Assembly: GCA_003999685.1 (NCBI GenBank)
Contig: CP021233.1
Location: forward strand, 992,001 to 1,056,000
Length of the DNA: 64,000 bases
Reading direction: 5' to 3'
Source: Taiwanofungus camphoratus
Taxonomy: Eukaryota > Basidiomycota > Agaricomycetes > Polyporales > Taiwanofungaceae
Positions 1,589 to 55,231 of the stretch are shown piece after piece. The translations under genes were made by a program, and so were the position numbers. Position 1 is the stretch's first letter. Each line of letters starts with the position of its first letter. A model generated the notes under the pieces. That model was not told where the DNA came from. It searched no databases and worked only from the letters and a program-made list of their open reading frames with translations.

Positions 1589-1602
1589 GAGTCGCGTATG
1601 GT
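1589..1602. repeat. Target-site duplication of LINE copy 1
   Basis: GAGTCGCGTATGGT lies directly before the element and is repeated exactly at 7441-7454 after its A-rich tail. It fixes both ends of the insertion. Confidence 0.95.
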
Positions 1603-1653
1603 CGCCGCTTCTTGAACCAGTACCACCATCTCGATTTAGCGCCCGTGCCCAGC

Positions 1654-4600: not shown

Positions 4601-7121
4601 ATGAGCGAGAGGATACAAGACACGAATATGATAGTCGAAAGACTAATGGTAACAAGATCAGACTTAAGGTCTGAGCTAAGCTAAGTACATGCTATATATA
4701 CAAATACCAATCATGAGCACGGACCAAGAACTACTCTAGGGCAGGAGGTCCGTAATGTGGTACGACTATAGATAAAATGCAAAGTGGTACGATCCGGGCG
4801 TATTAGCAATACGTATGAGTGATGAGGAATGTGGTAAGCGGCCCGGATATGAGTCAGAGTCCTATGCGTAAGCGGGGCCGATCCGGGGCCCGTATAGTAA
4901 TAGTCCATGAATAAGCAATGACCATGGTAATGACAAGAAATAGAAATTGTATCACATGGTGGCTTCGCCGAAGGCTGTTGACGACAGCCCGCAAGCCCTT
5001 GTTTTGAAGAACAACGCCATTTTGGCGGATGTCTTCCATGATCTCGTTGGTGATCTGAACCGTTTAGGTTTAGGCGTCGAAGGAGACAAGTTGGAGTTGA
5101 TGCACTTCTGGAAACGCCAGAAGGGGTATTCGACTTCTTGACCCCTTGGTCCAGATCTAACCATCTGAACTGATGGACATGACGTCACTTTGCGAGCAAA
5201 GGACACAATGCGCTATCTTGGGTTCTTTTTAGACCCCAAGCTTAGCTTCCATGCACACGTGCAGTTCTACGCCAACAAGGCGGCCAGCACGTGCAATGCA
5301 CTTCGCATGCTCGGCAATTCGGCACGCGGATTCCATCCCATTAACAAACGGCGGCTCTATATAGCGCACGTCGTTCCGTTGATGCTATACGGCGCTCAAC
5401 TGTGGTGGAACCCACAGTGGAAGGGCCTCAAATGGGCTGCAAAAGAATTGCAGACCGCTCAGTCGAGAGCAGCTAGGTGGATCACCGGCTGTTTTAAGAC
5501 CACACCGATCGGGGCGATGGAGATGTTGGGTGGGTTGGTCCCCATCCGCATCCAGGTCGACCGATACATGGAGAAAGCTGCGCTTCGAGCGCAGCGAGTT
5601 CATGAAGGGCACCCAATGAGGGCCACTCTCCCACCTTATTGGGCGACTAACGTCATCAATATCACTGCGCCATGGCCGCTTAACTCGCATCATGGCAAAA
5701 AACAGGCTATCACCCCCATGACGTTCATAGATCGCATCGGGCGGCAGTCATCAGAAGACTTTGCACCCCTCCACCCGGAGGCGTGGCCCGGTGATCGGGT
5801 CGTGGATCGGTACATTGATCGCTTCGAGCGGGTGTTCCTGGACGGAAAAGGTCCAAACAAAAGCTCACCAGAATTTGCCGACTGGTTGGAGTTCACCTGG
5901 TGGCCAGAATTCCGACGCCAGTTGGCCCAGCCAGAAGGGCGAATGCTATTCACTGATGGATCGTATGCAAATGCGCCACAAGTGAGATCCAGTAGCGCGT
6001 GGCTCGTCATTGACGGGGAAGATCATGTTGCCCATGGGAAGTTTGGGGCCGGTAAGGTCCAGAGCTTCGATGCAGAGATGCTGGCATTGGTGCGCGGGCT
6101 GTGTGAAGCAGTCCGTGACGTCCCTGTCCACATCACCACCCTTATAGTCTGTTCCGATAACCAATCGGCACTCAACCGAATTTTCAAGCCGGAGGTTGGA
6201 CCATCGCAGATGGTGGCGGTCATGGCCTCTCAACACGTCCGAGCGTTCCTCAATGCAGACGAACGCCGACGCATTGTCCTTTTTTGGGTTCCATCCCACA
6301 AAGGCATTTTTCAGAATGAGTTCGTTGACGAACTCGCGAAGAAAGCATTGGATGATCCCCAACCGGAATTCATCTCACAATCGATGGCCCTTGCTCGTGT
6401 CAAGGCAAGGGTCAAAAAGCGTTGGGGGACATTAGTCAACAATCCCAACTATCGCGGTCGACGGTTATGGAAAGTAACTGAGGACGCCCTACCGCTGCAC
6501 GGGACCACGGCTAAGGGCACGTGGGTCTTGAAGGCGGCTGGCAAGTCCAACAAGGAGGTGGCACGTGTGTGTCATGTGCTCACCAACCATTTTCCAGACG
6601 GTGAATACCGCTCTAGATTCAATATCCCTGGCCCTCACCTCTGTTTGTGCGGAGCGGAGGAAACCAGGGAACATGTGCTCTTTGACTGTCCATTCTGGAT
6701 CAGGACGAAGCGCCAACAGGGTCCTTGTGATCCGCTTCTGATGGGGCCCCCTGAACAAAGGGGATGGACCCCGGATGACATTATGGAGTTCCTTCGGCTC
6801 AACCCGATGGTCTCCACATTTGATTGGGCGGAGATTTTAGCAGAATCTCTGCTTGAAGCTGAAGCGGCGTGCACGAGAACGTTCACTCGTGCCCATCTTA
6901 TGTGCCACACTGTCGGAAGACAAGCGGCCTGGCAGCGGTTCCATGCGGACTGACATTTAGATCCTGGTATGACCACAGCCCTGGGTGGAAAGTACCGGGA
7001 TTTCTGCGAGTGGTACGACGCCGAAGCAAAGGCGTTTGAAATGTACCATAACTGGATAGATGAGGGGATAGCGGAACCCAGTATCCGCGACGACCCCCAC
7101 GTCTATCCAAACGATAACTGA
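1654..7121 (+). pseudogene. LINE ORF2 of copy 1 (endonuclease, reverse transcriptase, RNase H), broken
   Basis: The first ATG in frame is at 1654. About 200 Ser/Pro/Gly-rich residues come first, then the AP-type endonuclease (ISANVQKS, CGDFN, NSDH motifs), then the reverse transcriptase up to the FYVDD motif at about 4438. The solo LTR is inserted just after that motif. Past the LTR, the thumb, RNase H (TDGS, DAE, SDN) and C-terminal Cys/His motif are recognisable. Compared with copies 2 and 3, TGA stops lie at 5139-5141, 5166-5168 and 6951-6953. Each stands where the others have an arginine CGA or CGG codon, so CpG-type C-to-T change is the likely cause. The product cannot be made; this is a dead copy. 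Confidence 0.9.
4463..4954. mobile_element. Solo LTR of an LTR retrotransposon, nested in LINE copy 1
   Basis: A 492-bp insertion absent from copies 2 and 3. It starts TGATACAA and ends TTGTATCA, the usual TG...CA ends with an 8-bp inverted repeat, and is flanked by a 5-bp target duplication CATGG (4458-4462 and 4955-4959). A TATATATA-like stretch near 4692 could be the old promoter. No internal coding region is present, so this is the single LTR left after recombination between two LTRs. The superfamily (Gypsy or Copia) cannot be told from the LTR alone. It is younger than the LINE copy that holds it. Confidence 0.88.
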
Positions 7122-7669
7122 GGCCTGAAACCTGTAGGGCTACACTCAGTTCCTTAAGTGATTTACTGATGAAACGGGATTACCGGGCCGAGTAAACACA
7201 CAGAGCGTGAAAAGCGGGTCGGGCGGGGGTCGGGTATGGCTTCCTATGGATGACTGTACCCCTCCTTTTGCAGGCCTTGTTGAATTATATGCCCACGCCA
7301 CATAATGAGGCCACTGAAAACTGTAGGTGTGCCGCTCATGCGGGCGCGGATGCCCACTTACTATCATTATTACTCTACATGTACCTACGTCGTATGGAGT
7401 ATAAACCCGAGGAATTTAAAAAATAAAAAATAAAAAAAAAGAGTCGCGTATGGTACTTCGGATTTCAATGACCAGATAGCGGGCTTTGCATAAACTTAGT
7501 GCAGCGTGCATGTGACCGTGTCGTGCTCGTAACCGCGCCGGGCAGAGAACAATAGCCCTTGCCTTGTCTATGAGATTTAACACAAGACACTTCTTCCTTT
7601 TGTCCCTCGTCGTGCTCAAGTATCTCACTGATCCCAGTACCATCCGTTGATTGTATTGCAGGTCACACA

Positions 7670-10870: not shown

Positions 10871-10931
10871 CACCGCTTCTTGAACCAGTACCACCACTAT
10901 CTCCATTAGGCGCCCTAGCTTAGTCGTCGAA

Positions 10932-13556
10932 ATGGCCCCTACTTTCACTCCCTCTCCTCTCCCAACTGGCTCCCAACATACCGCTGGTGACTCGCAAGTC
11001 ACTGGGACGTCCTCGACTGGCAATTCGTCTTTGAGGGTGTCCGGCGGTACACCTCCAGGGCGACCTGCCCCATATCCTGCGCCTGATGCGCGGGGATCTC
11101 AAACCCAAGCCCAAGTTGAGGCTCTACGACTTTCTCGTGGAGCCTCCTTTGAGATGGAGATAATCCCAGAGACGTCTCCACCTCCTTCATCTGCTGCAGC
11201 GGCTTTCATGCCATCTCAGCCATTCATGCCCACCCCCACACCAGAGGTGAGCAACCCCCAGAGGGACATCGAGGACAACACGTTTATCGATTTCTCACAG
11301 GGGGGGCCTGCACCGCATGTCTCGGCATTACCCGAGGCCACGATGTATGCAATGGCCCCCAAAGTGCAGGTCTTCCAAGGCACCTGTTCGTCACAAGATG
11401 AGACTCCAGACTCCCTGCTAGCGGCCATCAGGGAATCGTTGCAACACATCTTGTACACTCTACATGTCGACCATGATGCGTACTTGCGTATCATACGGAG
11501 AGATGTCAACAAGTACCACGCTGAAGCCTATGGACTTGAGTGGAGAGATACGGCACAAGCTGCTTTGCAAGTGGCCAATCAAATGGTTGCTTTGATTGGA
11601 GCAGAACATATCGCGGACCTCAACGGGATTGGCCATCTGGCTACTCGTGTACGTGAACTAGTTGACATTCGGGTGGAGTTGGAAGCCACGATTGCCGAAC
11701 AACGCAGAACCATCGGTGAAATGTCGGTGGCACTTACATCGGTACTCCCCAAACCATCGGATCAATGGTTTGAGGGAGCACGCACAACGCTTGGGGCCAT
11801 CGCGACCTCAACCACTAACGATAGTGGCAAACTTATTCAAGCCGTCACTACGAACACGTTCACCCTACGAGCACTGTCGAAGAGAGTGGAAGGAATAGCG
11901 GCCGTAGCACCAGGTTATGCTGCTGTTACGGCATCATCGTCTGCAAAACAGACGCCCAAACAAGTGCGGATACAGTCACCGCCTAACCAAGGACCCAAAT
12001 CTGCACCCGCAGACAAGGGAAAGAAGCGCGCAGCTCCACCCTCTCCCACAAGGAGCAGGGCGACTTCGCCTGCAGCAAAAAGGACGAATACCGGCACAGT
12101 AATCGACCTTACGGCTGACGATGGTCCCAATTGGGATGACATACGGGGAGCGAGTGAGATCGCACAAATTGCCCCCAACATCTCCTTGTCAGACGCCTTA
12201 CGCATCGCACAAGGAATGGCTGCTCCCGCCCAATCGACAATTCGACGAGGCGATAGCAGATCTACGCGCGACCCCCGGCCACGTCCTGGACTAGGACGTG
12301 AACGTGGGAATGGCCCTACAATGATGGCACGGGATCCTACCCGTCCCATGATCACGATTGGCGATAACTCACCTGTTCGCCCACCTCCCGTAATTAAACA
12401 CGCGACACAACCGGCCCGGGGCGCAAGTCCCAAAACCGTGGTTCTTAGATTCGACCGAGCCCTAGAACTCGGAGACCTTCTGGATATCGACAACCTCAAG
12501 GTAGTCGTACAACAACTGTTGGCTGGAGCGGGAAACTCCGTCAACTATCTCGTTAACGCCATAGTACCACCTGAAAACGGGGAGGTACATTTGGTATGCA
12601 GTGAACGCCCTACCACAATGGAATTGGGCGCCCTAAGAGCTGGCATGGGACGACTAGTCGCACCGCATGTGGCACCGGACGGAATGAACCCAGTTGGGCT
12701 AACGCTCGACTGGGCACATATCATCACTCAAATGGCGATCAAGGCCTTCCCGTTGTACCGGGATGGAACTAGGGTTGAATACACACCGCTCGAAGTCTTC
12801 CAAGAACTCGTAAGGAACAATGAGTGGGCAGAGGAAATAGTCCTACACCCACATCATTCGCCCAAAGCTCGATACCAATCAGCTTCTGGCGGCAGTGGCT
12901 TATTCATTTTCGCCATACTCGACACCCGGTCTGGTTCTACGGCCATCCGGATCATGAAGAAACCGGTCCGTCTTTTCGGCAAAACGTACCGATTACAACC
13001 ATGGATTGAGACGACAGCCGTCCCACTCTGTCTCCGATGCTGGCGATGGGGTCATATTGCCCCATTATGCCAATCTGCACATGAGTGCTGCGTCAAATGT
13101 GGCGAACCTCATATTTTGGCACTACACGAAGAAAAAGCGTCGTGTTGCGCACAACGTAGGGCTGCAATGTCGGTAACAACGATTGTATGCCCACCGGAAC
13201 ACGCTAGTTGCCCTAATTGTGGCAAATCTGGCGATGATGGACACCAAGCTGATTCGCCCAAGTGCCAATGGGCAAAGAAGCGACGTGACCAACAATGGCA
13301 CAAGGCCCACCCGCCGGTGGTATCTGTTGCCAAAGGAAGGGCGGCAGCAGCGAAAGCTGCCACCAGAGGAAAGCTGCGTGGCCTTTCTGAAAAGGCACGA
13401 GGCAAACAACCTGCTCGGCCCGGACCGTCGGGCGAGTCATTTGAGATCACGGACCCCTCTGACGGAGAAGGAGTTTCTGATCATGAAAGTGGTGAGATAA
13501 ATTCCAGTGGCTCGAGCACGCCTAGGCCTCGAGTCATGGGAGAATCCACTACATAA
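10932..13556 (+). CDS. LINE ORF1 protein, zinc-knuckle RNA-binding (copy 2)
   Basis: An 874-residue protein, expected to coat the element's RNA in the ribonucleoprotein. The N-terminal 150 residues are Ser/Pro-rich. A helical stretch with heptad-like spacing follows (about residues 190-270), then a basic Ser/Pro-rich linker. Residues about 490-695 form a conserved globular region that could be the RRM-like domain of Tad ORF1, though I cannot prove that fold by eye. A Cys/His array follows: CX2CX4HX4C at C700-C703-H708-C713, a second CX2C cluster, and a third CX2CX7HX6C. The tail is basic, then acidic and serine-rich. It starts 61 bases from the element's 5' end and stops 22 bases before the ORF2 ATG. 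Copy 3 encodes a protein of identical length. Confidence 0.9.
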   Translation: MAPTFTPSPLPTGSQHTAGDSQVTGTSSTGNSSLRVSGGTPPGRPAPYPAPDARGSQTQAQVEALRLSRGASFEMEIIPETSPPPSSAAAAFMPSQPFMPTPTPEVSNPQRDIEDNTFIDFSQGGPAPHVSALPEATMYAMAPKVQVFQGTCSSQDETPDSLLAAIRESLQHILYTLHVDHDAYLRIIRRDVNKYHAEAYGLEWRDTAQAALQVANQMVALIGAEHIADLNGIGHLATRVRELVDIRVELEATIAEQRRTIGEMSVALTSVLPKPSDQWFEGARTTLGAIATSTTNDSGKLIQAVTTNTFTLRALSKRVEGIAAVAPGYAAVTASSSAKQTPKQVRIQSPPNQGPKSAPADKGKKRAAPPSPTRSRATSPAAKRTNTGTVIDLTADDGPNWDDIRGASEIAQIAPNISLSDALRIAQGMAAPAQSTIRRGDSRSTRDPRPRPGLGRERGNGPTMMARDPTRPMITIGDNSPVRPPPVIKHATQPARGASPKTVVLRFDRALELGDLLDIDNLKVVVQQLLAGAGNSVNYLVNAIVPPENGEVHLVCSERPTTMELGALRAGMGRLVAPHVAPDGMNPVGLTLDWAHIITQMAIKAFPLYRDGTRVEYTPLEVFQELVRNNEWAEEIVLHPHHSPKARYQSASGGSGLFIFAILDTRSGSTAIRIMKKPVRLFGKTYRLQPWIETTAVPLCLRCWRWGHIAPLCQSAHECCVKCGEPHILALHEEKASCCAQRRAAMSVTTIVCPPEHASCPNCGKSGDDGHQADSPKCQWAKKRRDQQWHKAHPPVVSVAKGRAAAAKAATRGKLRGLSEKARGKQPARPGPSGESFEITDPSDGEGVSDHESGEINSSGSSTPRPRVMGESTT

Positions 13557-13578
13557 GCGGACAATTTTATAATTGCCT

Positions 13579-16500
13579 ATGTATAATACACCGCAAAGAT
13601 CGGCTATATATAATACACGAGATAGATCTGAGTCTCCATTAGAGACGCCGGACTCTAACCGCACACCCAGTCCAACGAATGGAAGTGAGCAAATTGAGAA
13701 TGAACCGAACAAACAGCGTATTCTCACTATAATTAGTGCAAATGTCCAGAAATCGGCGGAAAACACTGGCATTTTGTTAGAAAGACATAGGGATGCTGAT
13801 ATAATCTGTATCCAAGAAATATACTGGGGACGCATCAAAGATGTAGCCTCAGCTAAGTCAAAGGACGGGGAAGCGTATGAGAATACGTCTGCCCATGCCT
13901 CGTTCAAGTGCCTCGGGGCATCGAAAGATTCCCGAGTCGCAATATACGTCAACAAGCGGTGGGCCGCGGCCTCTCCGCAAGTTGTCACCCATAGCGTCTC
14001 CCATAAGGATTGCCTTCTGGTAGCGCTCAAGCTTCCGTCCGGAGACTTTAATGTCCTGAACGTGTACAATGACAGCACCACCTTTGACGCTGTCCGATAT
14101 CTGGAAACACGTGTACACGCGCTTCCACCCATTGCGTGTATGTGCGGGGATTTCAATCTCCGCCACCCATTGTGGGACGCACGCGCTGCGGGATCTCGGG
14201 TGCGGCCTCCGCACTACGCTGATTCCAATCGCCTTATTGAGTTGGCCCAGGCTGAACTTGATCTGGTCTTGATGAACGCCCAGGACGGTTCTGTCACTTG
14301 GCGTTCCCACAACATCGCTCTCACACCTGGAGTCATTGACTTGGTGTGGATCGACCCAGCGTATTATGAAGGCCAAAACCTTCATGTACTCATGTCACAT
14401 CGTCACAACAGCGACCACGCGGTCCTGCGGTGGGAGATGCCGATTGAAGTTGAACCAGAACCGATGCGAGGGATTCCTCGTACCGATGACACGGCCCAAC
14501 AATTTGTGACGGCAACGGCGAAACTGTTCGCCGATTACCCTACACATTTCAGCAGCGCCCAGGGCGTTGAACGAATGGGGGATCGTCTCGAGCGAGACCT
14601 CCAACGACTATGGATGGAGTTTTCAGCAGTAAAAAGACCATCCAAACGTTCGAAGTCGTGGTGGGACGCTGCATGCTCCCGCGCGGCTACTAAGTTAGCG
14701 AACACCCAACACCGCCTCAGTGCGGCGTCAGGGCAGTATCGCTACATACGTCATCAGTCGGGACCTGGCGCTCAGGCCACTGCAGACGCATACGACATTG
14801 CTGCCGAACTTCGGTCCGAACGGCATAAACAACGTGCAACACTCCGCCTTGCCACGAAGCGGGCGAAGCATGCACACTTTGATCGGATCATGGATGAATC
14901 CAATCCCCAATCGATCTCAAACTTTGTTGCATGGACAAAGCCGAGACGACAAGAGGCCACTATCCAGCTGCGGCAAGCTGATGGTGTGCCAGTTCAAAGT
15001 GCGACTGATCTTAGTCGCGCTTTCCAAGCCCAGTTCACGCCTGCCAACCCACGGCCGGTGGATCTGACGTTCGTAGACGAAATTCCCCAAAGGGAGGAAT
15101 TGACTCTACCGGACATTAGTGAGTTTGAGATCCGCGAGAATCTCAAATCCACTAGCAATACATCCACACCCGGTCCCGATCATGTGAACTGGATGTGGAT
15201 TAAATGGATGGTGGACCGGATCGAGCGCTCCGAGGAGGGCATCGAGACCGATCTTGGTATACACGTGCGGCAATGGCTGCGCGCGTACTATAACGCTTGC
15301 CTCGATTTCGAAGTCTATCCAAGCGTCTTTAAGCGGTCTGTTACGGTGGTGTTACCCAAACCGAACAAACCAGACTATACAATAGCGAAGGCCTACAGGC
15401 CTATCTGCTTGCTGAATTGCTTCGGCAAACTGTTCGAAAAGATCATTGCCAAGCGAATGCAGTGGGATGCCCAGAAGTGGGGAATCCTACACCCATGCCA
15501 GTTCGGTGGGGCTATGCAACATAGCACCACTGACGCTGGCATTCAACTTGTGCACAATGTCAAAGAGGCATGGGCGCGCAACCTTATCCCATCGGTGCTA
15601 TTGCTCGATGTGTCTCAGTTCTACCCGTCCATCAATCATGATGCGCTGGTAGGAATCATGCGAAAGCAGGGCTTCAATAGCAAGCTCTGCAATTTCATGG
15701 CAAATTACTTGATCGGGCGCAAAACCCGATTCTCGTTTAACGGCACCCTGACCGAGCCATCTGACTTCGATGTCGGAGTTGGTCAGGGTTCTAGCTTATC
15801 CCCGATCTTATCCGGGGTTTACATTGCACCGGTTATACACAAGTGGGCGCCAGTCCATTTGGTACAACCGGGCCGAACCGGGACTCAGTTCTATGTGGAC
15901 GACGGTCTCATCATGGCGGCTTCGCCGAAGGCTGTTGACGACAGTCCGCAAGCCCTTATTTTGAAGAACAACGTCATTTTGGCGGATGTATTCAACAATC
16001 TTGTAGGCGACCTGAACCGTTTAGGTTTAGGCGTCGAAGGAGACAAGTTAGAGTTGATGCACTTCTGGAAGCGCCAGAAGGGGTATTCGACTTCCCGACC
16101 CCTTGGTCCAGATCTAACCATCCGGACCGACGGACATGACGTCAATTTGCGAGCAAAAGACACGATGCGCTATCTTGGGTTCTTTTTAGACCCCAAGCTT
16201 AGCTTCCATGCACACGTGCGGTTTTACGCCAATAAGGCGGCCAGCACATGCAATGCACTCCGCATGCTCGGTAACTCGGCACGTGGATTCCATCCCATCA
16301 ACAAACGACGGCTCTATATAGCGCACGTTGTTCCGCTGATGCTATATGGCGCTCAACTGTGGTGGAACCCACAATGGAAGGGCCTCAAATGGGCTGCGAA
16401 GGAATTGCAGACCGCCCAGTCTAGAGCAGCTCGATGGATCACCGGCTGTTTCAAGACCACACCGATCGGGGCGATGGAGATGTTGGGTGGGTTGGTCCCC

Positions 16501-18063
16501 ATCCGCATCCAAGTCGACCGGTACATGGAAAAAGCTGCGCTTAGAGCGCGGCGAGTTCATGAAGGACACCCAATGAGGGCTGCTCTTCCACCTTATTGGG
16601 CGACCAACGTCACCAATATCACTGCGCCATGGCCGCTTAACTCGCGACGTGGAAAAAAACAGGCTGTCACCCCGATGACGTTCATAGATCGCATCGGGAG
16701 ACAGTCATCAGAAGACTTTGCACCACTCCACCCGGAGGCGCGGCCCGGTGATCGAGTCGTGGATCGGTACATTGATCGCTTTGAGCGGGTGTTTTTGGAC
16801 GGAAAAGGTCCAAACAAAAGCTCTCCTGAATTCGCCGACTGGTTGGAGTACACCTGGTGGCCGGAATTCCGGCGCCAGTTGGCCCAGCCAGAAGGGCGAA
16901 TATTATTCACTGATGGGTCGTATAAGAATGCACCCACAGTGAGATCTGGAAGCGCGTGGCTCGTCATCGACGGGGAAGATCACGTTGCCCATGGAAGATT
17001 CGGGGCCGGTAAGGTCCAGAGCTTCGATGCGGAGATGCTGGCATTGGCGCGCGGGTTGCGAGAAGCGGTTCGTGACGTCCCTGCCCACATCACCACCCTC
17101 ACGGTCTGTTCCGATAACCAATCGGCACTTGACCGAATTTTCAAGCCGGAAGTCGGATCGTCGCAAATGGTGGCGATTATGGCTTCTCAACACGTCCGAG
17201 CGTTCCTCGATGCAGATGAACGCCGACGCATTGTCCTTTTATGGGTCCCATCCCATAAAGGCATTTTTCAGAACGAGTTCGTTGATGAACTCGCAAAGAA
17301 AGCATTGGATGATCCCCAACCGGAATTCATCTCACAATCAATGGCCCTTGCCCGCGTAAAGGCAAGGGTCAAAAAGCGCTGGGGGACACAAGTTGATAAC
17401 CCCAGTTATCGCGGCCAACGATTATGGAAAGTAACCGAGGACGCCCTACCGCTACACGGGACTACGGCTAAGGGCACGTGGGTTTTGAAGGCAGCTGGCA
17501 AGTCCAATAAGGAGGTGGCACGCGTCTGTCGAGTGCTCACCAACCATTTCCCTGGCGGTGAATACCGCTCTCGGTTCAATATCCCTGGCCCTCACCTCTG
17601 CCTATGCGGAGCGGAGGAAACCAGAGAACACGTGCTCTTTAACTGTCCATTCTGGATCAGGACGAAGCGCCAACAGGGTCATCGTGATCCGCTTCTGATG
17701 GGGCCCCCTGAACAAAAGGGATGGACCCCGGATGACATCATGGAGTTCCTTCGGCTCAACCCGATGGTCTCCACATTCGATTGGGCGGAGATTCTGGCAG
17801 AATCTCTGCTTGAAGCTGAAGCTGCGCGCACGAGAACATTCACTCGAGCCCGTCTTATGTGCCACACCGTCAGAAGACAAGCGGCCTGGCAACGGTTCCA
17901 TGCGGACCGACATTTAGATCCCGACATGACCACCGCCCTGGGTGGAAAGTACCGGGATTTCTGTGAGTGGTACGATGCCGAGACAAAGGCGTTTGAAATG
18001 TACCATAATTGGGTAGACGAGGGGATAGCGGAACCCAGTATCCGCGACGACCCTCCCGTCTAA
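13579..18063 (+). CDS. LINE ORF2 polyprotein: endonuclease, reverse transcriptase, RNase H (copy 2)
   Basis: A 1,494-residue enzyme for target-primed reverse transcription. An AP-type endonuclease occupies roughly residues 48-285, with N55, E80, D191 and N193 (GDFN), and S278-D279-H280. The reverse transcriptase core follows, from LPKPNKPDYT through GQGSSLSPILSG to FYVDD (Y772-D775); most LINEs have FADD or YADD here. RNase H carries D1112 (TDGS), E1152, D1179 and D1236, so all four acidic residues are present. A C-terminal Cys/His motif (CLCGAEETREHVLFNC) ends the recognisable domains. Start: the ATG at 13579; an in-frame TTG lies two codons before it. The ORF1 stop lies 22 bases upstream in another frame, which suggests stop-restart translation. 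No break was seen. Confidence 0.95.
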   Translation: MYNTPQRSAIYNTRDRSESPLETPDSNRTPSPTNGSEQIENEPNKQRILTIISANVQKSAENTGILLERHRDADIICIQEIYWGRIKDVASAKSKDGEAYENTSAHASFKCLGASKDSRVAIYVNKRWAAASPQVVTHSVSHKDCLLVALKLPSGDFNVLNVYNDSTTFDAVRYLETRVHALPPIACMCGDFNLRHPLWDARAAGSRVRPPHYADSNRLIELAQAELDLVLMNAQDGSVTWRSHNIALTPGVIDLVWIDPAYYEGQNLHVLMSHRHNSDHAVLRWEMPIEVEPEPMRGIPRTDDTAQQFVTATAKLFADYPTHFSSAQGVERMGDRLERDLQRLWMEFSAVKRPSKRSKSWWDAACSRAATKLANTQHRLSAASGQYRYIRHQSGPGAQATADAYDIAAELRSERHKQRATLRLATKRAKHAHFDRIMDESNPQSISNFVAWTKPRRQEATIQLRQADGVPVQSATDLSRAFQAQFTPANPRPVDLTFVDEIPQREELTLPDISEFEIRENLKSTSNTSTPGPDHVNWMWIKWMVDRIERSEEGIETDLGIHVRQWLRAYYNACLDFEVYPSVFKRSVTVVLPKPNKPDYTIAKAYRPICLLNCFGKLFEKIIAKRMQWDAQKWGILHPCQFGGAMQHSTTDAGIQLVHNVKEAWARNLIPSVLLLDVSQFYPSINHDALVGIMRKQGFNSKLCNFMANYLIGRKTRFSFNGTLTEPSDFDVGVGQGSSLSPILSGVYIAPVIHKWAPVHLVQPGRTGTQFYVDDGLIMAASPKAVDDSPQALILKNNVILADVFNNLVGDLNRLGLGVEGDKLELMHFWKRQKGYSTSRPLGPDLTIRTDGHDVNLRAKDTMRYLGFFLDPKLSFHAHVRFYANKAASTCNALRMLGNSARGFHPINKRRLYIAHVVPLMLYGAQLWWNPQWKGLKWAAKELQTAQSRAARWITGCFKTTPIGAMEMLGGLVPIRIQVDRYMEKAALRARRVHEGHPMRAALPPYWATNVTNITAPWPLNSRRGKKQAVTPMTFIDRIGRQSSEDFAPLHPEARPGDRVVDRYIDRFERVFLDGKGPNKSSPEFADWLEYTWWPEFRRQLAQPEGRILFTDGSYKNAPTVRSGSAWLVIDGEDHVAHGRFGAGKVQSFDAEMLALARGLREAVRDVPAHITTLTVCSDNQSALDRIFKPEVGSSQMVAIMASQHVRAFLDADERRRIVLLWVPSHKGIFQNEFVDELAKKALDDPQPEFISQSMALARVKARVKKRWGTQVDNPSYRGQRLWKVTEDALPLHGTTAKGTWVLKAAGKSNKEVARVCRVLTNHFPGGEYRSRFNIPGPHLCLCGAEETREHVLFNCPFWIRTKRQQGHRDPLLMGPPEQKGWTPDDIMEFLRLNPMVSTFDWAEILAESLLEAEAARTRTFTRARLMCHTVRRQAAWQRFHADRHLDPDMTTALGGKYRDFCEWYDAETKAFEMYHNWVDEGIAEPSIRDDPPV

Positions 18064-18400
18064 ACAACAAATAACTGAGGCCTGAAACCTGTAAGGCTAG
18101 ACTCAGTTCCATAAGTGTTTTGCTGACGGAACGGGGTACCGGGCCGAGCAAACACACAGAGCGCGAAAGACGGGTTGGGGTCGGGTATGGCGTCGTATGG
18201 CGACTATACGCTTCCTGTCAGACCTTGTTGGATTACATGCCCACGCCACATATCGAGGCCACCGAAAACTGTAGGTGTACCGCTCATGCGGGCGCGGATG
18301 CCCACTTACTATCATTATTACTCTACATGTACCTACGTCGTATGGAGTATAAACCCGAAGAATTAAAAAAAAAAAAAAAAAAAAAAAAATTATCGACCAG

Positions 18401-36301: not shown

Positions 36302-36315
36302 ATCATACATCATTG
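36302..36315. repeat. Target-site duplication of the short LINE derivative
   Basis: ATCATACATCATTG precedes the element and recurs exactly at 37237-37250 after its A tail. Confidence 0.93.
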
Positions 36316-37236
36316 CGACGCTTCTTGACCTCGAACCACCACCATCTCCTTGGGCGCTTGTCGCTCACCGAGGCTTTACTCTACCATCCCTCTCTTAATA
36401 CCACTCATTCTCGTGTCAAGATCATCCAACTTGACCCCCACATTCTCTTTCTGAGCATTGATTAACTCGATCATAGAATTGTCGCTGTCCTACACTGTCT
36501 ACGGCGACATTCTTCTCTCCCTTATCTGCCACCTGTCACTCAGAAGCGACAGCCTCCAAATCCTCTTGACCTTAAATGTGGTCAGCCCCAAACTTATCCA
36601 ATTGTTGATGAACACGGTCGCTTGTAGAAGGGGAGGGGAGCAATCGCTACTCGACAACACTCAACACCCATGCAAGATGCGCCGAAAAGAGGGCCTCCGT
36701 GTGTGGTTCATCATTATGGGAGTTAGGGCAAGTTGCCAGGGGATCGGGGTCGAAGGGGTGGGCCGATATACTGGTCCTGTCGGTATGAGGATTTCTGAGC
36801 CAGGCTGGGAGGGGAAGGGGGGGAACTTCAGTCAGTCGTTGGGTAAGTGGGCCTCCTTCAACGGGCCGCATGGAACACGGGAGGAATCCGCGTGGGAAGT
36901 TTATTTGGGTGCCAGTGACCATCCCTAATTGGGTCACCCATGAGGCGGGGAGAATAGCGACACCGAGAGCCGGCGATGACTCTTCCCGCCCACTTGATGA
37001 CTGAGGCCCGAAACCAGTAGGGCAAACTCAGTCCCTTACGGGTGCTGTCGGTACGGACAACCGAGCCGGGCAACCCTTCCGAGCGTGTGGATTTCCTGCC
37101 CACGCCACGTAACGAGGGCACCGATCGATAACGGTGCACCGCTCATGGGGGCGCGGAGCCTACTTACTATCCCTAACTCTACATGTACCACGGTGTACGG
37201 AGTATAAACCCGGTGAATTTAAAAAAAAAAAAAAAA
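36316..37236 (+). mobile_element. 921-bp non-autonomous LINE derivative
   Basis: It starts CGACGCTTCTTGACC, followed by CACCACCATCTCC and GGGCGC, which closely match the first 45 bases of the 7.5-kb LINE. It ends with a diverged version of the LINE 3' end. From about 36925 the remains of the ORF2 C-terminus can be aligned, then the 3' UTR (CTGAGGC..GAAACC, CCCACGCCAC, CCGCTCATG, CTCTACATGTACC, GGAGTATAAACCC) and an A tail of about 16. Everything between, some 580 bases, is unrelated to the LINE. A loose open frame (36458-36928) lacks an early ATG and matches nothing I know. Target duplications of 14 bp show that it moved as a unit. It is best read as a deletion or capture derivative moved by LINE proteins in trans. 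Confidence 0.85.
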
Positions 37237-37250
37237 ATCATACATCATTG

Positions 37251-47692: not shown

Positions 47693-47706
47693 AACGCCTC
47701 CCACTT
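47693..47706. repeat. Target-site duplication of LINE copy 3
   Basis: AACGCCTCCCACTT flanks the tail end of the element and recurs exactly at 55218-55231 beside its 5' end. Confidence 0.95.
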
Positions 47707-48024
47707 TTCTTTTTTTTTTTTTAATTCCTCGGGTTTATACTCCATACGACGTAGGTACATGTAGAGTAATAATGATAGTAAGTGGGCATCCGCGCCCGCA
47801 TGAGCGGTACACCTACAGTTTTCGGTGGCCTCGTTATGTGGCGTGGGCATGTAATCCAACAAAGTCTGACAAGAAGCGTACAGTCGCCATATGACGCCAT
47901 ACCCGACCCCGACCTGTCTTTCACGCTCTGTGTGTTTTGCTCGGCCCGTTACCCCGTTCCGTCAGCAAAACACTTAAAGAACTGAGTCTAGCCCTACAGG
48001 TTTCAGGCCTCAGTTATCTGTTGG

Positions 48025-51000
48025 TTAGACGGGAGGGTCGTCGCGGATACTAGGTTCCGCTATCCCCTCGTCTATCCAATTATGGTACATTTCAAACGCC
48101 TTTGCTTCGGCGTCGTACCACTCACAGAAATCACGGTATTTTCCACCCAGGGCGGTGGTCATACCGGGATCTAAATGTCGGTCCACATGGAACCGTTGCC
48201 AGGCCGTTTGTCTTCCGACAGTGTGGCACATTAGACGGGCCCGAGTAAATGTTCTCGTGCGCGCAGCTTCAGCTTCGAGCAGAGATTCAGCTAGAATCTC
48301 CGCCCAATCAAATGTGGAGACCATCGGGTTGAGCCGAAGGAACTCCATGATGTCATCCGGGGTCCAACCCTTTTGTTCGGGGGGCCCCATCAGAAGCGGA
48401 TCACGAGGACCCTGTTGGCGCTTCGTCCTGATCCAAAATGGACAGTCGAAGAGCACGTGTTCCCTGGTTTCCTCCGCTCCGCATAAGCAAAGATGAGGGC
48501 CAGGGATGTTGAACCGAGAACGGTATTCACCGCCAGGGAAATGGTTGGTAAGCACGCGACATACGCGTGCCACCTCCTTGTTGGACTTGCCAGCTGCCTT
48601 CAAGACCCACGTGCCCTTGGCCGTAGTCCCGTGCAGCGGTAAGGCGTCCTCGGTTACTTTCCATAACCGTCGGCCGCGATAACTAGGGTTATCGACTTGT
48701 GTCCCCCAGCGCTTTTTGACCCTTGCCTTTACGCGGGCAAGGGCCATCGATTGTGAGATGAATTCCGGTTGGGGATCATCCAATGCTTTCTTCGCAAGTT
48801 CATCAACAAACTCGTTCTGAAAAATGCCTTTATGAGATGGGACCCATAAAAGGACGATGCGTCGGCGTTCATCTGCATCGAGGAACGCTCGGACGTGTTG
48901 AGAGGCCATGACCGCCGCCATTTGCGACGACCCGACTTCCGGCTTAAAGATTCGGTCAAGTGCCGATTGGTTATCAGAACAGACCGTGAGGGTGGTGATG
49001 TGTGCAGGGACGTCACGGACCGCTTCTCGCAGCCCACGCGCCAGTGCCAGCATCTCCGCATCGAAGCTCTGGACCTTTCCGGCCCCAAATCTTCCATGGG
49101 CAACGTGATCTTCCCCGTCAATGACGAGCCACGTGCTACCAGATCTCACTGTGGGCGCATTTGCATACGATCCATCAGTGAACAACATTCGCCCTTCTGG
49201 CTGGGCCAACTGGCACCGAAATTCCGGCCACCAGGTGAGCTCCAGCCAGTCGGCGAATTCAGGAGAGCTTTTGTTTGGACCTTTTCCGTCCAAGAACATC
49301 CGCTCGAAACGATCTTTGTATCGATCCACGACCCGGTCTCCGGGCCGCGCCTCCGGGTGGAGTGGTGCAAAGTCTTCTGATGACTGCCTCCCGATACGAT
49401 CTATGAACGTCATCGGGGTGACAGCCTGTTTTTTGCCACGTCGTGAATTAAGCGGCCATGGCGCAGTGATATTGGTGACGTTAGTCGCCCAATATGGTGG
49501 AAGAGCGGCTCTCATTGGGTGCCCTTCATGAACTCGCCGTGCTCTGAGCGCAGCTTTTTCCATGTATCGGTCGACCTGGATGCGGATGGGGACCAGCCCA
49601 CCCAACATTTCCATCGCCCCGATCGGTGTGGTCTTGAAACAGCCGGTGATCCACCGAGCTGCTCTCGACTGAGCGGTCTGCAGTTCTTTTGCAGCCCATT
49701 TGAGGCCCTTCCACTGTGGGTTCCACCACAGTTGAGCACCGTATAGCATCAGCGGGACGACGTGCGCTATATAGAGCCGTCGTTTGTTGATGGGATGGAA
49801 TCCGCGTGCCGAGTTACCCAGCATGCGGAGTGCATTGCACGTGCTGGCCGCCTTGTTGGCGTAGAACCGCACGTGTGCATGGAAGCTAAGCTTGGGGTCT
49901 AAAAAGAACCCAAGATAGCGCATGGTGTCCTTTGCTCGCAAAGTGACGTCATGTCCATCAGTCCGGATGGTTAAATCCGGACCAAGGGGTCGGGAAGTCG
50001 AATACCCCTTCTGGCGCTTCCAGAAGTGCATCAACTCCAGCTTGTCTCCTTCGACGCCTAAACCTAAACAGTTCAGGTCTCCTACGAGATTGTGGAAGAC
50101 ATCTGCCAAAATGGCGTTGTTCTTCAAAATAAGGGCTTGCGGGCTGTCATCAACAGCCTTCGGCGAAGTCGCCATGATGAGACCGTCGTCCACATAGAAC
50201 TGAGTCCCGGTTCGGCCTGGTTGTACCAAATGGACTGGCGCCCACTTGTGTATAACCGGTGCAATATAAATCCCAGATAGAATCGGGGATAAACTAGAAC
50301 CCTGACCAACTCCGACATCAAAGTCAGATGGATCGGTCAGGGTACCGTTAAACAGGAATCGGGTTTTACGCCCGATCAAGTAGTTTGCCATGAAATTACA
50401 GAGCTTACTATTGAAGCCTTGTTTTCGCATGATTCCTACCAGTGCATCATGATTGATGGACGGGTAGAATTGGGACACATCTAGCAATAGCACCGATGGG
50501 ATAAGGTTGCGCGCCCATGCCTCTTTGACATTGTGCACAAGTTGAATACCAGCGTCAGTGGTGCTATGCTGCATAGCCCCACCAAACTGGCATGGGTGTA
50601 GGATTCCCCATTTTTGGGCATCCCACTGCATTCGCTTGGCAATGATCTTTTCGAACAATTTGCCGAAGCAATTCAGCAAGCAGATAGGCCTGTAGGCCTT
50701 CGCTAGCGTATAGTCTGGTTTGTTCGGTTTGGGTAACACCACCGTAACAGACCGCTTAAAGACGCTCGGATAAACCTCGAAATCGAGGCAAGCGTTATAG
50801 TACGCGCGCAGCCATTGCCTCACGTGTATACCGAGATCGGTCTCGATGCCCTCCTCAGCGCGCTCGATCCGGTCCACCATCCATTTAATCCACATCCAGT
50901 TCACGTGATCGGGACCGGGTGCGGACGTATTGCTAGTGGATTTGAGATTCTCGCGAATCTCAGTCTCACTAATGTCTGGTAGAGTCAATTCCTCCCTTTG

Positions 51001-52509
51001 AGGAATTTCGTCTACGAACGCTAGATCCACCGGCCTTGGGTTGGCAGGCGTGAACTGAGCTTGGAAAGCACGACTGAGATCAGCCGCACTTTGAACTGGC
51101 GCACCATCAGCTTGCCGCAGCTGAATAGTGGCCTCTTGTCGTCTCGGCTTTGTCCATGCGACAAAGTCCGATATTGATTGGGGATTGGATTCATCCATGA
51201 TCCGATCGAAGTGTGCTCGCTTCGCCCGCTTTGTGGCAAGGCGAAGTGTTGCACGTTGTTTATGCCGTTCGGACCGAAGTTCGGCAGCAACGTCATATGC
51301 GTCTGCGGTGGCCTGAGCGCCAGGTCCCGACTGATGACGTATGTAGCGATACTGTCCCGACGCCGCACTAAGGCGGTGTTGGGTGTTCGCCAACTGAGTA
51401 GCCGCGCGGGAGCATGCAGCATCCCACCACGACTTTGAACGTTTGGATGGTCGTTTTACTGCTGAAAACTCCATCCATAGTCGTTGAAGGTCTCGCTCGA
51501 GGCGATCCCCCATTCGTTCAACGCCCTGGGCGCTGCTGAAGTGTGTAGGGTAGTCGACAAATAGTTTCGCCGTTGCCGTTACAAATTGTTGGGCCGCGTC
51601 ACCTGTACGAGGAATCCCCCGCACCGGTTCGGGCTCAACTTCAATCGGCATCTCCCACCGCAGGACCGCGTGGTCGCTGTTGTGACGATGTGACATGAGT
51701 ACATGAAGGTCTTGGCCTTCATAGTACGCTGGGTCGATCCACACCAAGTCTATGACTCCAGGTGTGAGAGCAATGTTGTGGGAACGCCAAGTGACTGGAC
51801 CGTCCTGGGCGTTCATTAGGACCAAATCGAGTTCGGCCTGGGCCAATTCAATGAGGCAATTGGAATCAGCGTAGTGCGGAGGCCGCACTCTAGATTCCGC
51901 AGCGCGTGTATCCCATAATGGGTGGCAGAGATTGAAATCCCCGCACATACACGCAATGGGTGGAAGCGCGTGTACACGTGTTTCCAAATATCGGACAGCA
52001 TCAAACGTGTTGCTGTCGTTGTACATGTTCAGGACATTGAAGTCCCCGGATGGAAGCTTGAGCGCTACCATAAGGCAATCTCTATGGGAGACGCTGTGGG
52101 TGACAACTTGCAGGGATGCCGAAGCCCACCGCTTGTTGACGTAAACTGCGACCCGGGAATCTTTTGATGCCCCAAGGCACTTGAACGAGGCATGGGCGGA
52201 CGTATTCTCGTACGCCTCCCCGTCTCGTGATTTAGCTGAGGCCACATCTTTGATGCGTCCCCAGTATATTTCTTGGATGCATATTATATCAGCATCCCTA
52301 TGTCTTTCTAACAGAATGCCAGTGTTTTCCGCCGATTTCTGGACATTTGCACTAATTATAGTGAGGATAGGCCGATTATTCGGTTCATTCTCAATTTGTT
52401 CACTTCCAGCCAACGGGCTAGGTGTGTGGTTAGAGTCCGGCGCCTCAAATGGAGACTCAGATCTATCTCGTGTAATATTTATAGCCGATCTTTGCGGTGT
52501 ATTATACAT
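48025..52509 (-). CDS. LINE ORF2 polyprotein: endonuclease, reverse transcriptase, RNase H (copy 3)
   Basis: 1,494 residues, the same length as in copy 2, starting at the ATG at 52509 and ending DDPPV. All endonuclease (GDFN, NSDH), reverse transcriptase (GQGSSLSPILSG, FYVDD) and RNase H (TDGS, DAE, SDN, VDELAKK) motifs and the C-terminal CLCG...CPFW motif are unchanged. The substitutions relative to copy 2 avoid catalytic residues, as expected if the protein was under selection until recently. Confidence 0.95.
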   Translation of the reverse strand: MYNTPQRSAINITRDRSESPFEAPDSNHTPSPLAGSEQIENEPNNRPILTIISANVQKSAENTGILLERHRDADIICIQEIYWGRIKDVASAKSRDGEAYENTSAHASFKCLGASKDSRVAVYVNKRWASASLQVVTHSVSHRDCLMVALKLPSGDFNVLNMYNDSNTFDAVRYLETRVHALPPIACMCGDFNLCHPLWDTRAAESRVRPPHYADSNCLIELAQAELDLVLMNAQDGPVTWRSHNIALTPGVIDLVWIDPAYYEGQDLHVLMSHRHNSDHAVLRWEMPIEVEPEPVRGIPRTGDAAQQFVTATAKLFVDYPTHFSSAQGVERMGDRLERDLQRLWMEFSAVKRPSKRSKSWWDAACSRAATQLANTQHRLSAASGQYRYIRHQSGPGAQATADAYDVAAELRSERHKQRATLRLATKRAKRAHFDRIMDESNPQSISDFVAWTKPRRQEATIQLRQADGAPVQSAADLSRAFQAQFTPANPRPVDLAFVDEIPQREELTLPDISETEIRENLKSTSNTSAPGPDHVNWMWIKWMVDRIERAEEGIETDLGIHVRQWLRAYYNACLDFEVYPSVFKRSVTVVLPKPNKPDYTLAKAYRPICLLNCFGKLFEKIIAKRMQWDAQKWGILHPCQFGGAMQHSTTDAGIQLVHNVKEAWARNLIPSVLLLDVSQFYPSINHDALVGIMRKQGFNSKLCNFMANYLIGRKTRFLFNGTLTDPSDFDVGVGQGSSLSPILSGIYIAPVIHKWAPVHLVQPGRTGTQFYVDDGLIMATSPKAVDDSPQALILKNNAILADVFHNLVGDLNCLGLGVEGDKLELMHFWKRQKGYSTSRPLGPDLTIRTDGHDVTLRAKDTMRYLGFFLDPKLSFHAHVRFYANKAASTCNALRMLGNSARGFHPINKRRLYIAHVVPLMLYGAQLWWNPQWKGLKWAAKELQTAQSRAARWITGCFKTTPIGAMEMLGGLVPIRIQVDRYMEKAALRARRVHEGHPMRAALPPYWATNVTNITAPWPLNSRRGKKQAVTPMTFIDRIGRQSSEDFAPLHPEARPGDRVVDRYKDRFERMFLDGKGPNKSSPEFADWLELTWWPEFRCQLAQPEGRMLFTDGSYANAPTVRSGSTWLVIDGEDHVAHGRFGAGKVQSFDAEMLALARGLREAVRDVPAHITTLTVCSDNQSALDRIFKPEVGSSQMAAVMASQHVRAFLDADERRRIVLLWVPSHKGIFQNEFVDELAKKALDDPQPEFISQSMALARVKARVKKRWGTQVDNPSYRGRRLWKVTEDALPLHGTTAKGTWVLKAAGKSNKEVARVCRVLTNHFPGGEYRSRFNIPGPHLCLCGAEETREHVLFDCPFWIRTKRQQGPRDPLLMGPPEQKGWTPDDIMEFLRLNPMVSTFDWAEILAESLLEAEAARTRTFTRARLMCHTVGRQTAWQRFHVDRHLDPGMTTALGGKYRDFCEWYDAEAKAFEMYHNWIDEGIAEPSIRDDPPV

Positions 52510-52531
52510 AGGCAATTATAGAATTGTCCAC

Positions 52532-55156
52532 TTATGCGGCCGATCCCCCAGCTCCTCGAGGCCTAGGCGTGCTCGAGTCACTGGAATGTATCTCACCGCT
52601 TTCTTGACCAGATACACCTTCTACATCAGAAGGGTCCGTGATCTCAAATGACTCGCCCGAGGGTCCGGGCCTAGCAGGTTGTTTGCCTCGTGCCTTTTCA
52701 GACAGTCCACGCAACTTTCCTCTGGTGGCAGCTTTCGCTGCTGCCGCCCTTCCTTTAGCAACGGATACCACTGGCGGGTGGGCCTTATGCCACTGTTGGT
52801 CTCGTCGCTTCTTCGCCCATTGGCACTTGGGCGAGTCCGCTTGATGTCCATCTTCGCCAGTTTTGCCACAGTTCGGGCAGCTGGCATGTTCAGGTGGGCA
52901 TGCAATGGTTTTTACCGACATTGCCGCCCTTCGTTGCGCACAACATGAAGATTGTTCTTCGTGTAATGTCAATATATGAGGTTCGCCGCACTTGACGCAA
53001 CACTCATGAGCCGACTGGCATAATGGGGCAATATGGCCCCATCGCCAACACCTAAGACAGAGCGGGACGGCTGAGGTCTCGATCCATGGTTGTAATCGGT
53101 ACGTCTTGCCGAACAGGCGGACCGGTTTCTTCATGATCCGGATGGCCGTAGAACCAGACCGGGTGTCAAATATGGCAAATATAAATAAGCCGCTGCCGCC
53201 GGAGGCCGATTGATATCGAGCCTTGGGCGAATGGTGTGGGTGTAGGATTAATTCCTCCGCCCACTCATTGTTGCGCACAAGTTCTTGGAAGATTTCGAGC
53301 GGTGTGTATTCGACCCTAGTTCCGTCCCGGTACAACGGGAACGCCTTGATCGCCATTTGTGTGATGACGTGGGCCCAGTCAAGCGAAAGCCCAACTGGGT
53401 TCATACCATCCGGTGCCACATGCGGTGCGACTAGTTGTCCCATGCCAGCTCTGAGGGCGCCCAATTCCGTTGTGGTAGGGCGTTCACTGCATACCAAATG
53501 TACCTCCCCATTTCCAGGCGGTACAATGGCGTTAACAAGATAATTGACGGAGTTTCCCGCTCCAGCCAATAATTGTTGCACGACAGTTTTGAGGTTGTCG
53601 AGATCAAGGAGATCGCCGAGTTCGAGGGCTCGGTCGAATCTAAGAATCACGGTTTTGGGGCTTGCACCCTGGGCCGGTTGTGTCGCATGTTTGATTACGG
53701 GAGGGGGGCGGACATTTGTGGCCGCTCCAATTGTGATTATTGGTCGGGTGGGGTCCCGTGCCATCATCGTGGGGCCTATCCCACGTCCGCGTCCTGATCC
53801 AGGGCGAGGACGAGGGTCGCGCGTGTATCTGCTATCACCTTGCCGAGATGACATTTGGGCGGGAGCAGTCATTTCTTGCGCAATACGTAACGCATCGGAC
53901 AAGGAGATGTTGGGGGCGATTTGTGCGATCTCTGTCGCTCCCCGTATATCGTCCCAGTTGGGACCGTCGTCAGTTGTAAGGTCGATTACTTGTCCTGTAT
54001 TCGCCCTTTTTGCTGCGGGTGAAGCCGCCCTGCTCCTTGTGGGAGAAGGCGGAGCTGCACGCTTTTTACCCTTTTCCGCTGATGCAGAATTGGGTCCTTC
54101 TTTAGGTGGTGATTGGATTCGCACCTGCTTGTGTGTCTGTTTAGCAGACGATGATGCCGTGGCAGTGGCGTAGCCTGGTGCTGCGGCAGCTAAGCCTTCT
54201 ACTCTCTTCGACAAAGCACGTAGGGTAGAGGTATTCGTGGTGACGGCTTGAATAAGCTTGCCACTATCGTTCGTGGTTGAGGTCGCAATGGCCCCAAGCG
54301 TTGTGCGTGCTCCTTCAAACCATTGATCAGATGGTTTGGGGAGTACCGATGTGAGTGCCGTCGACATCTCGCCGATGGTTTTACGTTGTTCGGCAATAGT
54401 GGCTTCTAACTCCGCCCTAATGTCAACCAGTTCACGTACACGGGTGGCCAGGTGGCCTATCCCGTTAATATCCGCGATATGTTCCGCCCCAATCAGTGTG
54501 ACCATTTGATTGGCCACCTGCAGAGCGGCTTGTGCCGTGTCCCTCCACTCAAGTCCGTAGGCCTCAGCTTTGTACTTGTTTACATCCCTCCGTATGATAC
54601 GTGAATACGCATCCCGGTCGACGTTCAAGGTGTACGAGATGTGTTGCAACGATTCCCTGATGGCCGCTAACAGGGAGTCTGGAGTTTCATCTTGTGACGA
54701 ACAGGTGCCTTGGAATACCTGCACTTTGGGGGCCGTTGCATACATCGTGGCCTCGGGTAACGCCGAGACATGCAGTGCAGGCCCCCCCTGTGGGAAATCG
54801 ATAAACGTGTTGTCCTCGATGTCCCTCTGGGGGTTGCTCACCTCTGGTGTGGGGGTGGGCATGAAGGGCTGAGATGGCATGAAAGCCGCTGCAGCAGATG
54901 AGGGAGGTGGGGATGACTCTGGAATCGTCTCCATCTCAAAGGAAGCTCCACGAGCGAGTCGTAGGGCCTCAACTTGGGCTTGGGTTTGAGATCCCCGCGC
55001 ATCAGGCGCAGGATATGGGGCAGGTCGCCCTGAAGATGTACCGCCGGACACCCTCGAAGACGACGTGCCAGTCGAGGGCATCCCAGTGACTGGAGAGTCA
55101 CCAGCAGTATAATGGGAGCCAGTTGGGTGGGAAGTGGGAGAGAAAGCAGGGGCCAT
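52532..55156 (-). CDS. LINE ORF1 protein, zinc-knuckle RNA-binding (copy 3)
   Basis: 874 residues, the same length as the copy 2 protein. It has the Ser/Pro-rich N-terminus, the conserved middle region, CLRCWRWGHIAPLC and the further Cys/His clusters, and the basic-then-acidic tail. It starts 61 bases from the element's 5' end and stops 22 bases before the ORF2 ATG, as in copy 2. Confidence 0.9.
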   Translation of the reverse strand: MAPAFSPTSHPTGSHYTAGDSPVTGMPSTGTSSSRVSGGTSSGRPAPYPAPDARGSQTQAQVEALRLARGASFEMETIPESSPPPSSAAAAFMPSQPFMPTPTPEVSNPQRDIEDNTFIDFPQGGPALHVSALPEATMYATAPKVQVFQGTCSSQDETPDSLLAAIRESLQHISYTLNVDRDAYSRIIRRDVNKYKAEAYGLEWRDTAQAALQVANQMVTLIGAEHIADINGIGHLATRVRELVDIRAELEATIAEQRKTIGEMSTALTSVLPKPSDQWFEGARTTLGAIATSTTNDSGKLIQAVTTNTSTLRALSKRVEGLAAAAPGYATATASSSAKQTHKQVRIQSPPKEGPNSASAEKGKKRAAPPSPTRSRAASPAAKRANTGQVIDLTTDDGPNWDDIRGATEIAQIAPNISLSDALRIAQEMTAPAQMSSRQGDSRYTRDPRPRPGSGRGRGIGPTMMARDPTRPIITIGAATNVRPPPVIKHATQPAQGASPKTVILRFDRALELGDLLDLDNLKTVVQQLLAGAGNSVNYLVNAIVPPGNGEVHLVCSERPTTTELGALRAGMGQLVAPHVAPDGMNPVGLSLDWAHVITQMAIKAFPLYRDGTRVEYTPLEIFQELVRNNEWAEELILHPHHSPKARYQSASGGSGLFIFAIFDTRSGSTAIRIMKKPVRLFGKTYRLQPWIETSAVPLCLRCWRWGHIAPLCQSAHECCVKCGEPHILTLHEEQSSCCAQRRAAMSVKTIACPPEHASCPNCGKTGEDGHQADSPKCQWAKKRRDQQWHKAHPPVVSVAKGRAAAAKAATRGKLRGLSEKARGKQPARPGPSGESFEITDPSDVEGVSGQESGEIHSSDSSTPRPRGAGGSAA

Positions 55157-55231
55157 TTCGACGACTAAGCTAGGGCGCCTAATGGAGATGGTGGTGGTAC
55201 TGGTTCAAGAAGCGGTGAACGCCTCCCACTT

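Follow-up and report, generated by a model that had tools for sequence, protein, structure and literature searches.

The insertion at positions 36316-37236 represents a family of dispersed elements (EL is our label for this family) whose copies share both ends with a LINE, are flanked by target duplications, occupy targets similar to those of the LINE and have been active recently. EL is very probably a non-autonomous retroposon family living on an APE-type LINE of the same genome, with a promoter in its own 5' end and a 3' end through which LINE proteins recognise and copy it. EL and the LINE make up a recently active pair of LINE and parasite with dispersed copies in what seems to be a mushroom-type fungus. 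The very short ends common to both (~29 nt at the 5' side and ~45 nt at the 3' side) point to what a LINE RNA needs, and their shortness makes the promoter and the recognition by reverse transcriptase directly testable.

Structure of the insertion

The window, by which the whole stretch of 64,000 nucleotides is meant, corresponds to C14:992001-1056000 of a 33.19-Mb genome in 15 contigs. The window sequence and blastn revealed at 36316-37236 a complete insertion: it is bounded by target duplications, closes with an A tail and has LINE-like ends around an interior unrelated to the LINE. The 14-bp sequence ATCATACATCATTG flanks it at 36302-36315 and at 37237-37250, and the A tail and 14-bp target duplications described in the earlier note were thus found in place. 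The parts of the insertion are as follows.

36302..36315, + strand: left target-site duplication ATCATACATCATTG (sequence)
36316..36319, + strand: CGAC, four bases separating the duplication from the conserved 5' block (copy comparison)
36320..36348, + strand: 29-nt 5' block GCTTCTTGA-N7-CCACCACCATCTC, common to both LINE classes, the relative EL2 and helicase genes near contig ends; proposed downstream promoter / 5'UTR
36349..36362, + strand: weaker continuation of the LINE-like 5' end (blastn and direct score)
36363..36953, + strand: EL interior, unrelated to the LINE (blastn, tblastn, Rfam, genome copies)
36954..37219, + strand: LINE-like 3' part with a trace of the ORF2 end and the 3' UTR, 73-84% identity (blastn)
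37175..37219, + strand: most conserved 3' terminus with a possible hairpin; proposed recognition site of the LINE reverse transcriptase (comparison of 3' ends)
37220..37236, + strand: A tail, one T and then A (sequence)
37237..37250, + strand: right target-site duplication ATCATACATCATTG, whose first A may be part of the tail (sequence)

The first ~40 bases of EL match the LINE 5' end with 85% identity over 40 columns (E 8e-6, blastn within the window). When the start of EL was scored directly against the start of the two-ORF LINE described below (LINE-A), it reached 22, as compared to 13 for the best of 83,402 other 45-mers of the window (both strands, outside the LINE and element regions) and 15 for the best of 20,000 shuffles; the next 100 bases of EL score 5. 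A coarser first control gave 22-23 in 2 of 11,986 windows, and both of these (1583-1627 and 1590-1634) overlap the start of the LINE at 1602. At the other end, EL and the 3' UTR of the window LINEs share 81-82% identity over the last 150 bp of EL. Further upstream the match weakens, and against LINE copy L041 it begins at 36954 and extends into the end of ORF2. The LINE-like start, 3' UTR and ORF2 tail claimed earlier from the letters alone are therefore real.

Over the ~590 bases of the interior, which had also been called unrelated, blastn found nothing in common with the LINE, and tblastn with the LINE proteins gave nothing credible, merely a match of 12 residues with an E-value of 0.57; a LINE-derived interior was rejected on these grounds. 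Since the interior is not LINE sequence, a 5'-truncated or internally deleted LINE copy was rejected as well. It is very improbable that EL is an ordinary pol III SINE which gained LINE ends. Its short length, LINE-like 3' end, A tail and lack of TTTT on the sense strand would suit such an element, and a B-box-like GTTCGAGG lies near the 5' end on the opposite strand, but no tRNA was found, Rfam gave no match up to E 1 and the sense strand shows no A- or B-box pattern. A head derived from tRNA, 7SL or 5S was rejected for want of any tRNA or Rfam match. EL also has its own 5' end, and it is, as had been proposed, neither a 5'-truncated LINE nor a tRNA- or 7SL-headed SINE.

No reverse transcriptase is present in EL, as judged from its frames and from comparison with the LINE proteins. 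Its longest frames have 157 and 126 codons, and no ORF is common to both EL subfamilies. The longest frame is broken by two stops in the old subfamily, and a shared ORF was rejected for that reason. In 8 of 14 young copies a 155-codon interior frame contains no stop, and there is some slight chance that the interior has a young coding function.

EL copies in the genome

A search with the interior gave 31 matches genome-wide (all 31 candidates scored), and 28 of them cover essentially the whole interior; two others are limited to the first 249 bases, and the remaining one is a fragment of 55 bases from a broken copy. The whole element gave at least 45 matches genome-wide among the best 40 of 158 candidates scored, and the counts of EL and LINE repeats are lower bounds in so far as they come from the best-scoring candidates. 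End-to-end copies number 23 (L001-L022 and L027), and target duplications were found for all of these except L012. In 16 of the 23 a script found exact duplications of at least 11 bp; in L002 and L005 they were seen by eye to be exact over 13 and 14 bp, and those of L009, L017, L019 and L027 contain a mismatch or are shorter. The interior search suggested in the earlier note thus revealed a family with independent insertions: the interior is multicopy and the 5' match to the LINE is kept in other copies.

Copy L024, not counted among the 23, is interrupted by a LINE-B that carries a 13-bp duplication of its own; a chimera made by template switching was rejected there, as AAATCGGTGCGCC stands on both sides of the LINE, the rest of EL resumes beyond it and the insertion is nested. 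The outer flanks of L024 agree at 12 of 13 bases by eye. The locus C7:1553884 was rejected as a parent LINE because it is an EL copy truncated at the 5' side, and the 5.2 kb around it contain no LINE ORF. Copy L038 is 5'-truncated and has an A tail and a duplication of its own (by eye). A separate repeat, marked by TGATGAGTCCCGTAGCC and CGTATCA at its opposite ends, breaks copies of EL, LINE-B and the helicase genes (L028, L030, L104-L107) and resembles a solo LTR.

For alignment 22 copies were used, and L023-L030 were left out as broken, shortened or, in the case of L027, more divergent. The 14 young copies (L001-L014) are 97-99% identical (mean 98.5%), eight older ones are 96.1% identical within their group, and young and old copies are 92.0% identical to each other. 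The young copies show 102 departures from the majority sequence, of which 79 are C-to-T or G-to-A changes at a CpG. The high identity of the 14 copies and this CpG decay show that EL activity is recent. With the CpG changes set aside, hardly any differences are left between the young copies, and this suggests cytosine methylation together with recent movement. The CpG ratio of EL is 0.79 as against 0.99 and 0.97 in the two LINE-A copies, which again points to DNA methylation. One divergent relative, EL2 (C12:970744-971835), resembles EL in three stretches, namely the first ~165 bp (76-81%), ~70 bp of the inner part (74-81%) and the last ~55 bp, and has an imperfect duplication in its flanks (by eye). 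Since EL2 keeps these pieces of EL, the plan of the element is older than the present subfamilies.

The existence of subfamilies bears on how EL copies arise. If each were newly made by a template switch from a cellular RNA to the LINE 3' end, they would be chimeras of the MINE type, which according to the available text of PMC2104539 occur in Magnaporthe. No second source of the interior was found in the 33-Mb genome, where all 31 matches are EL copies or pieces of broken ones, and this would fit such an origin. However, all 22 aligned copies have one layout and fall into subfamilies, and the reading already fails at this point; the divergent EL2 exists as well, and the LINE pieces in chimeras of Magnaporthe vary in length between 230 and 5461 nt in the part of PMC2104539 available. 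Repeated formation of this kind is thus highly unlikely, but a single founding template switch is a likely origin of EL.

It could also be imagined that EL goes back to a third LINE family and was left over when the coding part was deleted, so that the interior is old LINE sequence and the element moves in the same manner as proposed here. LINE-B makes the idea conceivable, as it shows that a different segment of ~600 bp can stand behind the common 5' block. All 31 interior matches, however, lie in EL copies or broken pieces, with none joined to LINE ORFs, and this reading is considered unlikely.

Probable partner LINEs, 3' ends and targets

The likely partner of EL is LINE-A, a 7.5-kb LINE with two ORFs. 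The window has two copies of it and one copy of a second class, LINE-B.

10872..18388, + strand: LINE-A copy, proposed helper; open ORF1 of 890 aa, open ORF2 of 1496 aa with endonuclease, RT and RNase H; target duplication
47705..55218, - strand: second LINE-A copy; both frames open; target duplication
1602..7440, + strand: LINE-B copy; same 5' block, without ORF1, own N-terminal segment fused to ORF2; frame broken

ORF1 of LINE-A contains motifs like zinc knuckles by eye and gave no match to Pfam; the endonuclease of ORF2 is of the Exo_endo_phos type. The partner may belong to the Tad-like fungal LINEs, which it resembles in the endonuclease, RT and RNase H of ORF2 and in the motifs of ORF1; EL itself has no such ORF and LINE-B has no ORF1. 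In LINE-B (1602-7440 and L031-L037) the block is followed by a Ser/Pro-rich segment of its own, ~600 bp long, leading into ORF2; the frame is open over 1330 codons in L035 and stops after 284-621 codons in the five others checked. Elsewhere in the window, two adjoining paralogous genes (56265-57044 and 58298-59074) share 72% DNA identity and look acetyltransferase-like by eye.

Comparison of 3' ends had been suggested as a way to find the parent LINE. Homologous LINE 3' ends were found, but the EL 3' end is at most ~84% identical to any LINE 3' end seen among the best 40 of 158 candidates scored. EL therefore did not arise by recent deletion from any of the present-day LINEs seen. A terminus of ~45 nt is common to EL, EL2, LINE-A, LINE-B and a third, distant LINE, in a comparison of ten distinct 3' ends selected among those obtained. 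The third LINE (L048:2253-3211) is 43% identical over 236 residues of ORF2, yet its 3' terminus matches those of LINE-A and EL. The terminus can be drawn as a hairpin in which 92% of cells pair, as compared to at most 59% when it is slid. Supporting covariation was absent (93 of 500 shuffles reach the score), because the pairing positions hardly vary, and three of four 3' ends folded no better than shuffles.

EL and the LINE also resemble each other in their targets. The first base of the EL duplications is R in 22 of 22, the second is A in 20 of 22, and C precedes the start in 17 of 22. All seven LINE duplications fit Y/RA, one of them (WA1) after a one-base shift by eye; the seven are the three window copies and four with a 3' end, out of ten part-fetched of 33 long LINE-A 5' matches. 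Part of this agreement is bias, since wherever possible a duplication was extended into the A tail, and A as the first base with a base other than A before it is thereby favoured. Duplications beginning with G are unaffected, and so is the predominance of C over G and T at the preceding base. The similar choice of targets, as read from the sequence, would point indirectly to the use of LINE proteins. The idea that LINE proteins recognise the common ends has indirect support for the 3' end, whereas the 5' end more likely serves another function.

The 5' block and helicase genes near contig ends

The conserved core of the 5' end is a block of 29 nt. The pattern CTTCTTGA-N7-CCACCAYCATCTC with up to two mismatches gave 106 matches genome-wide and its reverse gave none; among 100 listed matches we counted 69 with the LINE-type N7, 28 with the EL type, one in EL2 and two at helicase genes. 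The block is retained in the end-to-end EL copies, of which L002 and L005 begin a few bases late, and 2-6 variable bases separate it from the duplication in 19 of 22 copies (12 bases in L008). In the two LINE classes it makes up most of the 5'UTR, the first ATG lying at about base 53 in LINE-B and 62 in LINE-A.

At helicase genes the block lies upstream at C7:11529 and C6:27676, and a third occurrence at C10:39416 has two mismatches to a narrower pattern. All three lie 11-39 kb from contig ends.

C7:3400-11640: helicase locus L103/L108 with upstream block
C6:25450-27790: helicase locus L104 with upstream block
C10:39300-39540: helicase locus L109 with upstream block

The C7 gene behind the block matches the domains OrsD (E 2.6e-13) and DEAD helicase (E 1.2e-7); the C10 helicase is 99% identical to it and the C6 copy is interrupted. 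These genes look like telomere-linked helicases, and the contig ends may be telomeres. The block stands ~100 bases before the likely helicase ATG, in flanks common to these genes, and no LINE match was seen beyond it. Over 45 nt the helicase genes score 12-14 against LINE-A, which is inside the control range or hardly above its maximum of 13, and for this reason the link to the helicases is carried by the 29-nt block. Near the contig end in the same C7 region, an open frame with the motif RYIDDVF (L108:2-1060, C7:3401-4459) had no Pfam match; it is perhaps, we presume, the RT of a Penelope-like element.

As the block accounts for most of the 5'UTR in both LINE classes and is present upstream of a helicase gene family, it is more likely, from sequence comparison, to be a promoter or 5'UTR than an integration end recognised by protein. 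Binding of the block by LINE proteins at integration would agree with its position next to the target duplication in most EL copies, but the same block stands upstream of helicase genes where no LINE is visible, and such a role seems rather improbable. The occurrence of the block in the ORF1-less LINE and upstream of helicase genes suggests a modular exchange of 5' ends. Tentatively, the block could be a portable promoter/5'UTR module which heads three kinds of retroelement whose following sequences are unrelated, namely the two-ORF LINE, the ORF1-less LINE and EL/EL2, and which also stands upstream of OrsD-helicase genes near three contig ends. New retroelements might then be made by keeping the block and swapping the sequence behind it, and a gene at the chromosome end might have donated the promoter or taken it.

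Proposed mechanism

The first ~29-45 bases of EL, i.e. the LINE-like 5'UTR, would most likely serve RNA polymerase II as a downstream promoter that is copied along in each full-length insertion. The last ~45 bases together with the A tail would be where reverse transcription by the LINE ORF2 protein begins. The LINE proteins would nick targets of the form Y/RA, copy the EL RNA and leave duplications of mostly 12-16 bp. The interior of ~600 bp may be a passenger, perhaps acquired through a template switch to another transcript. Because a promoter located downstream of the start site forms part of the RNA, a short chimera that contains it could be transcribed wherever it is inserted, which would explain how EL became a family.

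Comparison with known systems

A search of the literature, judged from titles and the beginnings of abstracts, gave no system closer to EL than those below, and neither EL nor its block was found in print. The nearest is MoTeR2 of Magnaporthe oryzae. As far as the available text of PMC7367193 describes it, MoTeR2 shares 860 bp at the 5' end and 77 bp at the 3' end with MoTeR1 around an unrelated 786 bp and is, like EL, a non-autonomous fungal element with both ends of a non-LTR retrotransposon and an unrelated interior. With ends matching MoTeR1 around an unrelated interior, MoTeR2 shows that the class already exists in fungi, and the earlier remark on its rarity there has to be corrected by this precedent (PMC7367193, available part). 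In the same account MoTeR2 resides in telomere repeats and is paired with an element that encodes a restriction-like endonuclease, whereas EL copies are dispersed between target duplications and the endonuclease of the EL partner is of the Exo_endo_phos type; the common 5' part is ~29-45 bp in EL as against 860 bp in MoTeR2. FoTeRs of Fusarium are reported next to telomere-linked helicases (PMC12857005), and the text of that paper contains none of the terms non-autonomous, nonautonomous, MoTeR2 and SINE.

Other short RNAs are moved by a fungal LINE through its 3' end, namely the MINE chimeras and Mg-SINE, and in this they are like EL (PMC2104539, available part). The MINE elements there combine a WEIRD 5' part with 5'-truncated LINE pieces of many lengths, whereas EL has one layout; Mg-SINE is described in that text as similar at the 3' end, whereas EL is similar at both ends.

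For the proposed promoter at the EL 5' end, a tested precedent may be seen by analogy in Pr77 of trypanosomatids. RIME, one of the elements that carry it, is LINE sequence from end to end, whereas the interior of EL is foreign. According to the parts of PMC4748587 and PMC8190864 available, Pr77 is a short 5' sequence in coding and non-coding retroelements (L1Tc, ingi, NARTc, RIME) that drives pol II transcription and has a downstream promoter element at +25 to +28. It also contains an HDV-like ribozyme (PMC4035085, available part), whereas EL matches nothing in Rfam. EL differs from these systems in its very short common 5' end, the dispersed insertion with duplications, a partner in two forms and a block that it shares with a gene family near contig ends.
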